Part shown: positions 2,137-40,780 of the stretch, one piece after another
Layout of the letters: each line of letters opens with the position of its first letter
How positions within the stretch are numbered: the first letter of the stretch is position 1
NCBI GenBank assembly: GCA_031289735.1
Contig: JAITOV010000002.1
Coordinates: 1-41,765, forward strand
DNA length: 41,765 nt
Direction of reading: 5' to 3'
Source of the DNA: Peptococcaceae bacterium
Lineage (GTDB): Bacteria; Bacillota; Desulfitobacteriia; Desulfitobacteriales; Desulfitobacteriaceae
The notes under the pieces: model-generated
Database searches by the model: none
Seen by the model: only the letters and a program-made list of their open reading frames with translations
What the model was told of the DNA's origin: nothing
Made by a program: the position numbers and the translations under genes

Positions 2137-2742
2137 ATGCAGGAACATGACGTGGATCAGAAACAAAAACAGGGATCAGATCAGATCTGGGTGGAAGCCG
2201 AGGCGGCGGACAGCCCGATCAATGACGCCGCAGCCGGCGGAGATAACAGCCTGGATTTGGATGCAGCAGACGATTCGTCCGCTGATCCGGTGCTGAAATT
2301 AGCGCAGATACGTGCCGAGGCTCAGGATTATTTGCAGAATTGGCAGCGCTTGCAGGCGGAATTTGATAATTATCGCAAACGCACACAGCGTGAGCGTGAA
2401 GAATTGTTACGGTATGCTTCGGAACGTTTGGTGAAAACGTTGTTGTCGGTGCTGGACAATTTCGAGCGGGCGCTTACTTCAGCGCAAACACACAGCGATT
2501 TTCAGGGTTTTGCCCAAGGGGTCGAGATGATCTTCCGGCAGTTCTCCGATGTTTTAGCCAAGGAAGGCTTACAGGTGATTGAGACCCAGGGGCAGACGTT
2601 TGACCCGAGTTTACATGAAGCTATATTCAGGGAAGAGTCAGGGACGTATCCGGAAAATACGATCTTAGAAGAAGTACAGAAAGGTTATTTGCTGAAAGAT
2701 AAGGTCATTCGTCACAGTATGGTGAAAGTGTCAGGCGAATGA
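2137..2742 (+). CDS. grpE: nucleotide exchange factor GrpE
   Basis: NYRKRTQREREE...LLSVLDNFERAL and C-terminal EEVQKGYLLKDKVIRHSMVKVS motifs. Confidence 0.95.
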   Translation: MQEHDVDQKQKQGSDQIWVEAEAADSPINDAAAGGDNSLDLDAADDSSADPVLKLAQIRAEAQDYLQNWQRLQAEFDNYRKRTQREREELLRYASERLVKTLLSVLDNFERALTSAQTHSDFQGFAQGVEMIFRQFSDVLAKEGLQVIETQGQTFDPSLHEAIFREESGTYPENTILEEVQKGYLLKDKVIRHSMVKVSGE

Positions 2743-2778
2743 TATAAACGCTAAAAGCTGATTTAAGGAGGAATAAAT

Positions 2779-4605
2779 ATGGGTAAAATTATTGGGATCG
2801 ACTTGGGAACGACGAATTCGTGCGTCGCGGTTATGGAAGGAGGCGAGGCGGTTGTTATTGCGAACGCGGAAGGGAATCGCATCACCCCGTCCGTCGTCGG
2901 ATTTTCTAAAACAGGGGAACGTCTGGTAGGGCAAGTAGCGAAACGTCAAGCGATTTCTAACCCGGATAAGACGATCAGTTCGATCAAACGTCATATGGGT
3001 ACAGATTATAAAGTCAATATCGATGGCAAGGATTACACCCCGCAGGAAATTTCATCCATTATCCTGGGTAAGCTGAAAGCGGATGCCGAGGCTTATTTAG
3101 GACAGACGGTGACGCAAGCGGTGATCACGGTTCCCGCTTATTTCACGGATGCCCAGCGCCAGGCCACGAAAGACGCCGGAACGATTGCCGGATTGGAAGT
3201 GTTGCGTATTATCAATGAGCCCACGTCGGCCGCGCTGGCCTATGGCCTGGATAAACAAGAAGACCAGACGGTGCTGGTATATGACTTGGGCGGCGGTACG
3301 TTCGATGTTTCTGTTCTGGAACTGAGTGAGGGGATCGTACAAGTGAAAGCGACCAGCGGTAATAACCGTCTGGGCGGGGATGACTTTGACCAACGTCTGA
3401 TCGAATATATCGCCGCGGAATTTAAGAAAAGCCACGGTGTGGATTTAACCAAGGATAAGGTCGCCGTGCAACGTTTGAAAGAAGCGGCGGAGAAGGCGAA
3501 GATTGAGCTGTCCGGGATTACCTCAGCGAATATCAACCTGCCGTTTATTACGATGACGGAAGACGGACCGCAACATCTGGATATCAATATTACCCGGGCA
3601 AAATTCGAAGAATTGACGGCTGACCTGGTCGAAGATACGATCGGACCGACGAAACAGGCTTTACAGGACGCCAAACTCAATTGGCAGGATATTCATCAAG
3701 TGATCCTGGTCGGTGGTTCCACGCGGGTACCGGCGGTGCAGGAGGCCATTCGCCAATTAAGCGGCAAAGAACCGCACAAAGGCGTAAATCCAGATGAAGT
3801 CGTCGCCTTGGGCGCGGCGATTCAAGCAGGCGTCTTGGGCGGCGAAGTGAAAGACATCATCCTGGTGGATGTGACGCCGTTATCCCTGGGCATTGAAACG
3901 CTGGGCGGTGTGTTTACTAGGATTATTGACCGCAATACGACCGTGCCTACGACCAAATCACAGGCATTTTCGACGGCAGCGGACAATCAGCCGTCTGTTG
4001 ACATCCATGTCCTTCAGGGTGAACGCGAGATGGCCGCTTATAACAAAACCTTGGGACGTTTTCAACTTGCTGGGATCTCTCCGGCGCCGCGCGGCATTCC
4101 GCAGATCGAGGTAACTTTCGATATTGACCGCAATGGGATCGTCCATGTGTCGGCGAAAGACAAGGCGACCGGCAATGAACAGAAAGTGACGATCACTTCT
4201 TCCGGCGGTTTAAGCAAGGAAGAAATCGAACAGATGAAAAAAGACGCTGAACTGCATGCGGAAGAAGATAAGCAGCGGCGTGAATTCGTCGATGTCAAGA
4301 ACGAAGCGGATTCTTTGGTGTATCAAACGGAAAAGACACTCAAGGATTTCGAGGGCAAGGGCGACGCCGCGGAAGTGGAATCGATCAAGCAAGCGATTGA
4401 AGAATTGCAGCAAGCCGCCGCAGGCGAAGATGTCCAGGCAATGAAGAATAAGATCGAAGCCGTGACCAAAGTCTTACACCCTTACGTTGAAAAGATGTAT
4501 CAACAGCAGGCGGCGCAGGGTCAAGAGGCGGCGCCCGAAGAGAGCGAACAAAAAAAGGATGACAATGTCGTTGATGCGGAATATACTGAAGTAGACAAAG
4601 AGTAA
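2779..4605 (+). CDS. dnaK: molecular chaperone DnaK (Hsp70)
   Basis: [35 protein letters not shown], full-length 608 aa. Confidence 0.98.
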
Positions 4606-20374: not shown

Positions 20375-20995
20375 ATGAGCACAGAATCAGAGACAAAACA
20401 CGTACATGTCGCTTGCGCTGACCCTTCGGCGATCGGCCTTTTCGGGTTAGCGATGGTGACCTTGGTTGCTTCTTCACAAAAACTGGGATGGACCACCGGT
20501 TATGCTTACGTGATCCCGTGGGCGCTTTTCTTGGGCGCTTTTGCTCAACTTTTCGCGGCGATCAATGATGCGAAACATGCGAATCACTTCGGTAGCACGG
20601 CATTTGGCGCATACGCGTTCTTTTGGATGGGCGTGGCCGCAACTTGGTTGATCAAACTGGGTTTCTTCGGCGAGGCGCTGATGAACGATATCGATGGGCA
20701 TCAATTGGCTTTCGCTTACGTAGGCTACCTGATCTTTACCCTGTTTATGACGATTGGCGCGATGGAAACCAATAAGGTCTTATTCATCATCTTTTTTCTG
20801 ATCGATCTGCTATTCCTTGGGTTATCACTGAGTACATTCGGTATTGCGGAAGAATTTACGCATGAATTAGCCGCATATGCCGAACTTCTGATCGCACTCT
20901 TCTCTTTCTACGGTGCGGGCGCGAATGTGTTGAATAACCACTTCGGTTATACCTTCCTGCCCATCGGCAAGCCGTTCCGGATTTTTAAGAAATAA
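20375..20995 (+). CDS. GPR1/FUN34/YaaH (SatP) family acetate/succinate transporter
   Basis: DPSAIGLFGLAMVTLVAS, six predicted TM segments, FGAYAFFWMGVAATW family-typical. Confidence 0.88.
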   Translation: MSTESETKHVHVACADPSAIGLFGLAMVTLVASSQKLGWTTGYAYVIPWALFLGAFAQLFAAINDAKHANHFGSTAFGAYAFFWMGVAATWLIKLGFFGEALMNDIDGHQLAFAYVGYLIFTLFMTIGAMETNKVLFIIFFLIDLLFLGLSLSTFGIAEEFTHELAAYAELLIALFSFYGAGANVLNNHFGYTFLPIGKPFRIFKK

Positions 20996-21002
20996 AAAAA
21001 GA

Positions 21003-21031
21003 TTGACAGAGATAGGCCGCCCTTTTATAAT
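21003..21031 (+). promoter_or_regulatory. perfect consensus sigma-A promoter (aroF leader)
   Basis: TTGACA 21003-21008, 17-nt spacer, TATAAT 21026-21031. Confidence 0.85.
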
Positions 21032-21079
21032 GAGAAAATACAAGGTGGATGTGCATAGACGATGAGAGTGGAGTCGGAG

Positions 21080-21205
21080 ATGTCTTTACGTGAAACAGCC
21101 TTACAGTTGAATCAAGCGTTTTCCTTTTTTTACTGGAGCTTTGATTTTGGCGCCGGCTATTTTGCGTTTTTGCATAAGACCTCCCTGTTGAGACTTTCCG
21201 TGTAG
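21080..21205 (+). CDS. aromatic-rich leader peptide of aroF attenuator (41 aa; in-frame alternative ATG at 21062)
   Basis: MSLRETALQLNQAFSFFYWSFDFGAGYFAFLHKTSLLRLSV; GGAG SD 6 nt upstream; 7 Phe, 2 Tyr, 1 Trp within residues 14-30; lies between promoter and terminator. Confidence 0.82.
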   Translation: MSLRETALQLNQAFSFFYWSFDFGAGYFAFLHKTSLLRLSV

Positions 21206-21242
21206 GATAGCACGTAGACTTTCGGGTACAAGAGAGCTCAAC
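21187..21242 (+). promoter_or_regulatory. candidate antiterminator pairing: 21187-21198 (GUUGAG-A-CUUUC) with 21232-21242 (GAGAGCUCAAC)
   Basis: 11 bp (one G-U) with a single bulged A; mutually exclusive with the terminator stem. Confidence 0.65.
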
Positions 21243-21259
21243 CAAGAGCTCTCTTTTTT
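21231..21259 (+). terminator. intrinsic terminator (attenuator) between leader peptide and aroF
   Basis: AGAGAGCTC-AACCAA-GAGCTCTCT perfect 9-bp stem followed by TTTTT. Confidence 0.88.
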
Positions 21260-21330
21260 ATTATGATCAGGATCATACGGGAACCATACGGCGGCTCATC
21301 ATAAAAGTATAAGAGAAGGGCGGGAGAACA

Positions 21331-22344
21331 ATGATAATTATTCTTAAACCGGGTGTGGAGGCACGGGAAGTCCGCAATCTGACGGAAAACCTGGAGAGCC
21401 AGGGGGTAACGGTCAATCCGGTCTATGGGACGGAGCTGACCATTTTGGGGCTGGTGGGCGATACTTCGAAGATCGACTCCAGCCGGGTGGAAGGGAACCG
21501 GATCGTAGAACGCGTGATGTATGTCGCCGAGCCTTTTAAAAAGGCGAATAGAATGTTCCATCCGGAACCGACCGCCGTCGTAGTACAAGGACGGAAGATC
21601 GGCGGGGCAGAGTTGGCGGTTATCGCCGGGCCGTGTTCTGTGGAGTCGGAAGAACAGATTACCTTGGTCGCTGAGGAAGTGAAGCAAGCCGGCGCCGGAT
21701 TCCTGCGGGGCGGCGCCTTCAAACCGCGTACATCTCCCTATGCCTTCCAGGGCTTGGCGTATGAAGGGCTAAGATTATTAAAACATGCCCGGGAGCGTAC
21801 CGGGTTACCGATCGTATCCGAGATTATGTCCGCGCATGATATCGAAGTATTCGCGGATGCGGTGGATATCATTCAAGTAGGCGCGCGCAATATGCAAAAC
21901 TTCGACTTGCTGAAAGAATTAAGTCAGACTCGCAAACCGATTTTATTAAAACGCGGCTTGGCGGCAACAGTGGAAGAATGGCTTATGTCTGCGGAGTACC
22001 TGTTAGCTGGAGGAAACATGCAAGTCATCCTGTGTGAACGCGGTATCCGTACGTTTGAAACCTATACCCGCAATACGCTCGATCTAAGTTCGATTTTAGC
22101 TGTCAAAAAGATGAGCCATCTGCCGGTATTGGTGGATCCCAGTCATGCGGCCGGTAAATGGTGGATGGTTCCAGCTCTATCCAAGGCGGCTGTAGCCATA
22201 GGCGCGGATGGCTTGATGATTGAGGTGCACAATGACCCGGATCACGCGCTCTGCGATGGGCAGCAATCCATCAAACCGGAAGGCTTCCGAGAGTTGATGA
22301 AAGAATTACGCGCGATTGCTCAGGCCGTCGGGCGGCAGATTTAA
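21331..22344 (+). CDS. aroF: 3-deoxy-7-phosphoheptulonate (DAHP) synthase, type I-beta with N-terminal ferredoxin-like regulatory domain
   Basis: AVIAGPCSVESEEQI, GGAFKPRTSPYAFQG, LVDPSHAAGKWWMV. Confidence 0.96.
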   Translation: MIIILKPGVEAREVRNLTENLESQGVTVNPVYGTELTILGLVGDTSKIDSSRVEGNRIVERVMYVAEPFKKANRMFHPEPTAVVVQGRKIGGAELAVIAGPCSVESEEQITLVAEEVKQAGAGFLRGGAFKPRTSPYAFQGLAYEGLRLLKHARERTGLPIVSEIMSAHDIEVFADAVDIIQVGARNMQNFDLLKELSQTRKPILLKRGLAATVEEWLMSAEYLLAGGNMQVILCERGIRTFETYTRNTLDLSSILAVKKMSHLPVLVDPSHAAGKWWMVPALSKAAVAIGADGLMIEVHNDPDHALCDGQQSIKPEGFRELMKELRAIAQAVGRQI

Positions 22345-36018: not shown

Positions 36019-36095
36019 CGGGGCATAGCGCAGTTTGGTAGCGCGCCTGCCTTGGGAGCAGGAGGCCGCAGGTTCAAATCCTGTTGCCCCGACCA
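36019..36095 (+). tRNA. tRNA-Pro (anticodon TGG), CCA encoded
   Basis: CGGGGCA...TGCCCCG acceptor, anticodon loop CTTGGGA, GGTTCAAATCC T arm, ACCA end. Confidence 0.97.
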
Positions 36096-36473: not shown

Positions 36474-36521
36474 AAGATATGCATTGGCGCGCCTGGAGAG
36501 ATTCGAACTCCCGACTCTCTG
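36474..36521 (-). repeat. left arm of 48-bp inverted repeat (3' half of tRNA-Arg plus 11-12 nt downstream)
   Basis: 47/48 identical to the reverse complement of 40651-40698. Confidence 0.95.
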
Positions 36522-36561
36522 CTTAGAAGGCAGATGCTCTATCCAACTGAGCTACAGGCGC
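36485..36561 (-). tRNA. tRNA-Arg (anticodon TCT), CCA encoded
   Basis: Reverse complement GCGCCTGTAGCTCAGTTGGATAGAGCATCTGCCTTCTAAGCAGA...GGGAGTTCGAATCTCTCCAGGCGCGCCA. Confidence 0.97.
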
Positions 36562-40703: not shown

Positions 40704-40780
40704 GGTGGTTGTGGCGAAGTGGTTAACGCACCGGATTGTGGCTCCGGCACTCGGGGGTTCAAGTCCCCTCATCCACCCCA
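40704..40780 (+). tRNA. tRNA-His (anticodon GTG), CCA encoded
   Basis: G-1 plus GTGGTTG...CATCCAC acceptor, anticodon loop TTGTGGC, C73 and CCA; one U-U mismatch in acceptor stem. Confidence 0.95.

Follow-up and report, generated by a model that had tools for sequence, protein, structure and literature searches.

The window analyzed here is a 41,765-nucleotide stretch of DNA from a Peptococcaceae bacterium. On its plus strand, a promoter, a ribosome binding site (RBS), a short leader open reading frame (ORF), an intrinsic terminator, and the gene aroF follow one another in this order (Table 1). The aroF product is a 3-deoxy-7-phosphoheptulonate (DAHP) synthase of 337 residues with an N-terminal ferredoxin-like regulatory domain, and its sequence is close to that of a DAHP synthase of solved structure, 1rzm, the enzyme of Thermotoga maritima. 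It is encoded by the sole DAHP synthase gene of its family found in the genome, whose assembly is 87% complete. The 3' neighbor of aroF encodes a spore-germination (GerMN-type) domain, and aroF looks to be transcribed as a monocistronic unit. The upstream gene ends at position 20995. Because the promoter stands between that gene and the leader ORF, the terminator does not belong to the upstream gene. Comparable TTGACA...TATAAT sequences occupy the same place in L002, L004, L005, and other relatives, and an intrinsic terminator between leader and aroF is also present in most relatives. Farther along the window, two tRNA genes lie on opposite strands with ∼400 bases between them (36019–36092, plus; 36488–36561, minus), and a third is found at 40705–40777 (plus).

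Table 1. Positions in the window of the features that make up the aroF leader region
Feature	Position	Strand	Basis
Sigma-70-type promoter, TTGACA-17-TATAAT, 12/12 matches	21003–21031	+	Sequence
Shine-Dalgarno GGAG, 6 nt ahead of leader ATG (21080)	21070–21073	+	Sequence, RBS test
Leader peptide ORF, 41 codons + stop	21080–21205	+	Sequence; purifying selection on frame in relatives
Aromatic control-codon block, 17 codons (leader codons 14–30)	21119–21169	+	Sequence, chance test
P1 5' arm (CUGG A GCU), contains Trp codon 21134–21136	21133–21140	+	Stem and compensatory changes in relatives; weak in window
P1 3' arm (GGC G CCGG), in FGAGY (F-S-x-G-Y) motif	21149–21156	+	Fixed-register comparison
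Antiterminator 5' arm: GUUGAG 21187–21192, CUUUC 21194–21198, UGUA 21201–21204	21187–21204	+	Duplex search, covariation, stall calculation
Antiterminator 3' arm: UACA, GAGAG, CUCAAC	21227–21242	+	Duplex search, covariation, stall calculation
Intrinsic terminator: 10-bp stem 21230–21255 + U tract	21230–21260	+	Sequence
aroF, DAHP synthase	21331–22344	+	PF00793 + PF18152; TIGR01361

The leader ORF translates as MSLRETALQLNQAFSFFYWSFDFGAGYFAFLHKTSLLRLSV followed by a stop codon. Its aromatic block comprises 51 bases that read FSFFYWSFDFGAGYFAF and encode F S F F Y W S F D F G A G Y F A F, in which 10 of 17 residues are aromatic (seven Phe, two Tyr, and one Trp). When the bases were re-read, the block quoted in the first-pass annotation proved exact and in frame, and the count agrees with its description as weighted toward Phe while containing all three aromatic amino acids. 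The leader peptide has no match in Pfam or NCBIfam. Among relatives of one family (f3), the leader frame gives pN/pS values of 0.36–0.54 whereas shifted frames give values of ∼1, which indicates that the reading frame is evolving under purifying selection; the L007/L010 pair is an exception that lacks this signal. A comparison with the window's sister species (L002) shows exchanges of Phe and Tyr codons at aromatic positions and retention of the TGG codon.

The aromatic block is not a product of chance. When the region upstream of aroF in the window was shuffled 5000 times with dinucleotides preserved, no shuffle contained an RBS-preceded short ORF with at least eight aromatic residues in 15 codons; the observed number is nine. 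In a wider comparison, 110 regions upstream of aroF were examined, 30 taken from relatives and 80 from a scan of public genomes; these regions are not phylogenetically independent. A threshold of six aromatics in 15 codons was passed by 42 of them, compared with 0.32 expected, and nine in 15 was reached in 23. For 11 control sets of three residues each, with mixed codon numbers, 0–14 regions passed at six in 15 and none at nine.

Comparable leaders ahead of aroF occur across Clostridia and their relatives. Their hosts include Clostridium magnum, Clostridium ganghwense, and metagenome-assembled genomes labeled Pelosinus, Monoglobus, Lachnospiraceae, and Oscillospiraceae. Of 74 genomes of the window's order that were searched with a leader profile, 21 gave matches at E <= 0.01, all of them in family f3 or in the window's genus and none in other genomes of the window's own family. 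In nearly all matches the readable downstream gene is aroF, located directly 3'. The L048 locus stops too early for this gene to be read, and the weakest match, L056, is not ahead of aroF. Elsewhere in the window's family, aroF genes lack a leader of this kind; in some members, a chorismate mutase-like gene lies just 5' of aroF, and one member has T-boxes. Two aroF genes that are 79% and 72% identical to that of the window (L003 and L006, respectively) are located directly behind other genes without a leader. There the leader may have been lost, or operon control may be in its place. A separate conserved element, GTAGGATGGTNG, adjoins the aroF start in several leaderless relatives (L021–L025, L028–L030, and L105). 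Two copies are present in L105 (Heliorestis), and additional GTAGGATGG copies are close to a terminator in L028–L030. This element has no Rfam match in the region just upstream of aroF in L021–L030.

The codon content of the leaders bears on which amino acids they report. Among 26 non-redundant leaders, Phe is enriched 4.3-fold over background and Tyr 3.7-fold, and the Tyr share of Phe plus Tyr is 0.356 compared with 0.391 in the background. Enrichment of Trp is weak (∼1.9-fold, P = 0.02), and this residue makes up 4.4% of leader aromatics compared with the 9.1% expected from background (P = 0.0017). When 28 non-redundant leaders are sorted by content, 18 have Phe and Tyr only, nine have all three residues, and one has Phe and Trp. 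Phe and Tyr codons interchange among orthologous leaders. Some leaders are led by Tyr, such as MNLMINIYNYYYFFEGSIL and MICTAMFYNYYYFFNDKK, and those of L004 and L005 have no Tyr. By codon content, therefore, Tyr is enriched like Phe, as a dual sensor would require, whereas Trp is neither conserved nor enriched like the other two, as a three-input sensor would require. Phe and Tyr look like the selected inputs, and any contribution of Trp would be minor or limited to certain lineages.

Part of the block also belongs to a hairpin, termed P1. Leaders of different families share the motif F-S-x-G-[FY], whose Ser is encoded by AGC in all 21 cases, compared with 51 of 134 Ser codons elsewhere in the leaders. 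The motif forms the 3' arm of P1, and this pairing appears to be the reason for both the motif and its invariant AGC. In family f3 the hairpin reads UAGCC-N-GUGCUA, loop, UAGCAC-N-GGCUA; C. magnum keeps this 12-position register with UAGCUGGGGCUA opposite UAGCGCUGGUUA, and L010 has AUGCUA opposite UAGCAU. A change from Cys UGC to Trp UGG in L009 and L012 goes together with a change of the opposite AGC to ACC. The TGG in the stem interchanges with TGC, CAG, and TTG (Cys, Gln, and Leu), and the other arm compensates in part of the cases. RNA base-pairing thus explains the window's single Trp codon better than Trp sensing does.

Because MAFFT misaligned both the antiterminators and the P1 arms, arms were compared in a fixed register. 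Among 20 P1 arms, 78.8% of cells are paired compared with at most 46% when the arms are slid. The covariation score is 0.204, compared with at most 0.104 when slid, and is reached by nine of 500 column shuffles. Five pairs show two-sided changes. In the alignment from which these P1 figures were counted, the rows for the window (L001) and L058 are out of register with the others; the window's P1 is better read in the fixed-register comparison. Fifteen of 29 leaders fold better than synonymous-codon shuffles at p < 0.05. The window's own P1 is short and does no better than synonymous shuffles (z = −0.35). A search model built from P1 and its downstream flank found three further aroF leaders (L149, L150, and L155, in genomes G278, G371, and G449) from two families outside the model, and its two best new matches are among these three. 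Of 13 weak matches outside the order, 10 have no aroF nearby and were taken as noise. The P1 and antiterminator arms do not overlap, and P1 is therefore not a protector of the trp type. It is probably a pause that synchronizes the polymerase with the ribosome.

In the window, the antiterminator duplex pairs GUUGAG-A-CUUUC-CG-UGUA with UACA-A-GAGAG-CUCAAC. Its 5' arm covers the last codons of the leader and the stop codon, and its 3' arm overlaps the 5' arm of the terminator, so that antiterminator and terminator are mutually exclusive. Two-sided changes keep this pairing intact: GUUGAG/CUCAAC in the window has counterparts in CUAAUGAG/CUCAUUAG in family f3 and C. ganghwense, and in UUUGGUGAG/CUCAUCAAA in L054. 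The segment that follows the block forms a duplex with the terminator 5' arm that surpasses shuffles at p < 0.05 in 26 of 46 loci (Fisher p = 5e-22 over the 46 leader/terminator pairs, relatedness ignored). The duplex begins a median of 18.5 nt past the last clustered aromatic codon, a distance of which only the narrow spread, and not the positive sign, is informative, since the search was started at the end of the block. This spacing is as expected if a ribosome stalled at the last aromatic codon must free the arm. Relative to the stop codon, the duplex position ranges from about −43 to +2 (10th–90th percentile). Taken by itself, the window shows no significant advantage of the antiterminator duplex over shuffles (p = 0.16), and its whole leader folds no better than shuffles (z = 0.22). 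Given that P1 is likewise not significant there, the case for an attenuator rests on the relatives.

The switch point was calculated by folding the RNA beyond a ribosome set at each codon in turn. For stalls from F17 to K33 in the window, the antiterminator probability is 0.54–0.74 at nearly every codon (0.39 at D22), whereas from T34 to the stop codon it is 0.01 or less. Most of 15 other leaders show a similar fall just past the aromatic block. With no ribosome on the RNA, the antiterminator is predicted to form, unlike in the trp attenuator. In equilibrium folding, the terminator is always more stable than the antiterminator, and therefore the switch must be kinetic, decided during transcription.

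An unrestricted duplex search also found that GGAGCUUUG, located inside the block at 21135–21143, pairs with the terminator 5' arm. This segment was rejected as the main partner in the window, as the stall calculation indicates that it matters only for ribosomes positioned before F17, where it holds the terminator arm in place of the main antiterminator. It is possible that it serves as a second antiterminator for early stalls.

T-boxes are found at other loci of the same genome. One, with the specifier UGG, belongs to the trp operon (trpEGDCFBA, in the gene order deduced from translations), and those of pheST and leuA have the specifiers UUC and CUC, respectively, all read off alignments. That of leuA scores above the family cutoff; those of trpEGDCFBA and pheST score below it, with E values of about 1e-12 to 1e-13. 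(The trpEGDCFBA, leuA, and pheST loci are L140, G000:C137; L141, C134; and L142, C169.) Because the trp operon has its own UGG T-box, Trp is already sensed at its own branch. The aroF leader of the window has no Rfam match either at the gathering threshold or at E 0.05, and no covariance model match to T-box, Phe_leader, or Trp_leader. In L026, two tandem T-boxes are located ahead of aroF (2551–3036, minus strand). This arrangement indicates that T-box and leader-peptide control interchange at aroF within one order.

From sequence and folding calculations, we consider it very probable that the leader is a ribosome-mediated transcription attenuator of aroF that mainly reports charged tRNA-Phe and tRNA-Tyr, even though several AroF genes of similar sequence (L003 and L006) have no leader. 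As regards the inputs, the main rival is an attenuator that responds to Phe only. Its Tyr codons would be passengers, given that UAU and UAC resemble UUU and UUC and suit a U-rich RNA. The precedent is the leader aroR of Corynebacterium glutamicum, in which a Phe-Tyr-Phe run precedes aroF; Phe limitation is reported to act on its transcription and Tyr availability is not (PMC11802643). The Tyr codon of aroR without a Tyr response means that codon content alone is no proof of input. Phe also accounts for most of the aromatics in the window's leader, and the leaders of L004 and L005 do without Tyr. Set against this, the enrichment of Tyr is close to that of Phe, its share is near background, and Tyr-led leaders exist, which makes a Phe-only response rather unlikely. 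Less likely still is a true three-input sensor, in which shortage of Phe, Tyr, or Trp would each stall the ribosome and turn aroF on. A stall at the Trp codon (21134) is predicted to free the antiterminator equally well (P = 0.65), TGG is kept in the sister species, and Trp is slightly enriched. However, most leaders contain no Trp, this residue is under-represented relative to Phe and Tyr, the Trp codon sits in the P1 stem and exchanges with Cys, Gln, and Leu codons, and the trp operon has a separate T-box. The first-pass annotation had proposed just such a sensor in a leader ahead of the shared entry enzyme. The regulatory leader is borne out by the order of promoter, RBS, ORF, antiterminator, terminator, and aroF. 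Its contention that this is not a single-amino-acid leader also agrees with the codon content, since orthologs have not retained only Phe codons, the outcome that it had named as contrary to its claim. Of its three proposed inputs, Phe and Tyr hold up and Trp as a conserved input does not.

Explanations that dispense with tRNA charging as read by a ribosome fare less well. The sharing of F-S-x-G-[FY] by leaders of different families could reflect nascent-peptide arrest in the style of TnaC or ErmCL, with an arrest motif that senses a small molecule, whether a free aromatic amino acid or some other. We consider this very unlikely: the motif coincides with the P1 3' arm and keeps AGC for its Ser, so that RNA pairing explains it; short leaders that lack the motif, such as MKIYTSYFYFYFNSKV, occupy the same place; and leader C-termini vary. 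The ORF is short and rich in aromatic residues, and the upstream gene ends nearby, features that would suit a membrane protein of small size and hydrophobic character, or an ORF arisen by chance, the unrelated terminator being that of the upstream gene. The intervening promoter, an antiterminator that tracks the aromatic block, the very low chance expectation, and the lack of a Pfam or NCBIfam match render this highly improbable. The least credible alternative is that a T-box or riboswitch governs aroF and the leader ORF is incidental. It can point to the paired T-boxes of L026 and to the use of T-boxes elsewhere in the window's genome, but the Rfam search of the window's leader speaks against it.

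The region has the parts expected of the attenuator that we favor: an RBS-led ORF rich in codons for end products, a terminator between leader and structural gene, a downstream gene that serves the synthesis of these same amino acids, and an exclusive antiterminator placed where a control-codon stall would free it; the last of these draws on prediction and on covariation in relatives, and in the window alone it is not significant. The analysis shows how the region is built and that this build is conserved, that both helices covary in relatives, and where the calculated switch point lies; ribosome stalling and the direction of the response are what the model infers from this. In this model, transcription would begin at the consensus promoter and a ribosome would translate the leader. 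On shortage of Phe-tRNA or Tyr-tRNA, the ribosome would stall inside the aromatic block, leaving the antiterminator 5' arm free to capture the terminator 5' arm, and polymerase would continue into aroF. When Phe and Tyr are both plentiful, the ribosome would reach the stop codon and mask this arm, and the terminator hairpin would form. P1 probably acts as a polymerase pause within the codon block that keeps polymerase and ribosome in step. More tentatively, we propose that such leaders may constitute a class of aroF attenuators that is undescribed and occurs widely among Clostridia and related Bacillota. The class might read Phe and Tyr (and Trp in some lineages, for example, the window's genus) through one block, with a built-in 12-position P1 that dictates the usable codons, including TGG, and acts as the synchronizing pause; this broader proposal strikes us as plausible, but we would not yet call it probable.

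Leaders that read several amino acids are already known from thrL (Thr and Ile) and ilvL (Ile, Leu, and Val). The enterobacterial leaders pheL, trpL, thrL, and ilvL resemble that of the window in their control codons and antiterminator/terminator logic; they differ in genes and sequences, and the window matches no Rfam leader model. P1 does not pair with the antiterminator arm, so that no trp-like protector hairpin is evident. The T-boxes of aromatic genes in Bacillota also place these genes under the control of tRNA charging, as on trpE and pheS in this genome. However, they bind uncharged tRNA directly, without translation, and none is present at the window's aroF.

A literature search for aroF leaders in Clostridia, largely among papers outside subscription journals, returned only C. 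glutamicum aroR and the uORFC-13-1 motif of Acholeplasma. The aroR leader (Neshat et al. 2014, as described in PMC11802643) was first noted in PMC4046766. Like the window's leader, it is a peptide ORF that contains codons for Phe and Tyr and precedes the gene of a DAHP synthase, and ribosome stalling is described as raising transcription. It differs in its very short run, its actinobacterial host, and the response reported for it, to Phe but not to Tyr, whereas leaders of the window's type have long aromatic runs, often 8–13 per 20 codons, and, in relatives, include a hairpin that covaries inside the block. The uORFC-13-1 motif is a predicted Phe upstream ORF (uORF) before aroF with predicted attenuation, described as a Phe leader and with a published range of Acholeplasma and environmental sequences only (PMC8632094). 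It shares with the window the order of promoter, uORF with Phe codons, terminator, and aroF. By contrast, the Acholeplasma leader in L131, MFINQAYYYFYQM, is short, and F-S-x-G-Y is not visible in it by eye. Leaders of aroF as such are thus already known, and what appears to be new from sequence comparison is a codon block of this length with Phe and Tyr at similar weight, the covarying hairpin embedded in it, and the occurrence of such leaders across Clostridia.

Leader-peptide attenuation has long been held to be nearly absent in Firmicutes, where T-boxes do that work. For a 2010 survey, the first regular case was a histidine leader found in bacilli (PMC2965389). In the genome studied here, T-boxes serve trp, pheST, and leuA, and the shared entry enzyme has a leader peptide. 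This choice makes sense because a T-box reads one tRNA, whereas at the shared entry enzyme a leader peptide could sense two products with one transcript. The leader also carries a caution, namely that codon content can be dictated by RNA pairing rather than by sensing. It offers a clean test case for the integration of several amino acids by one leader.
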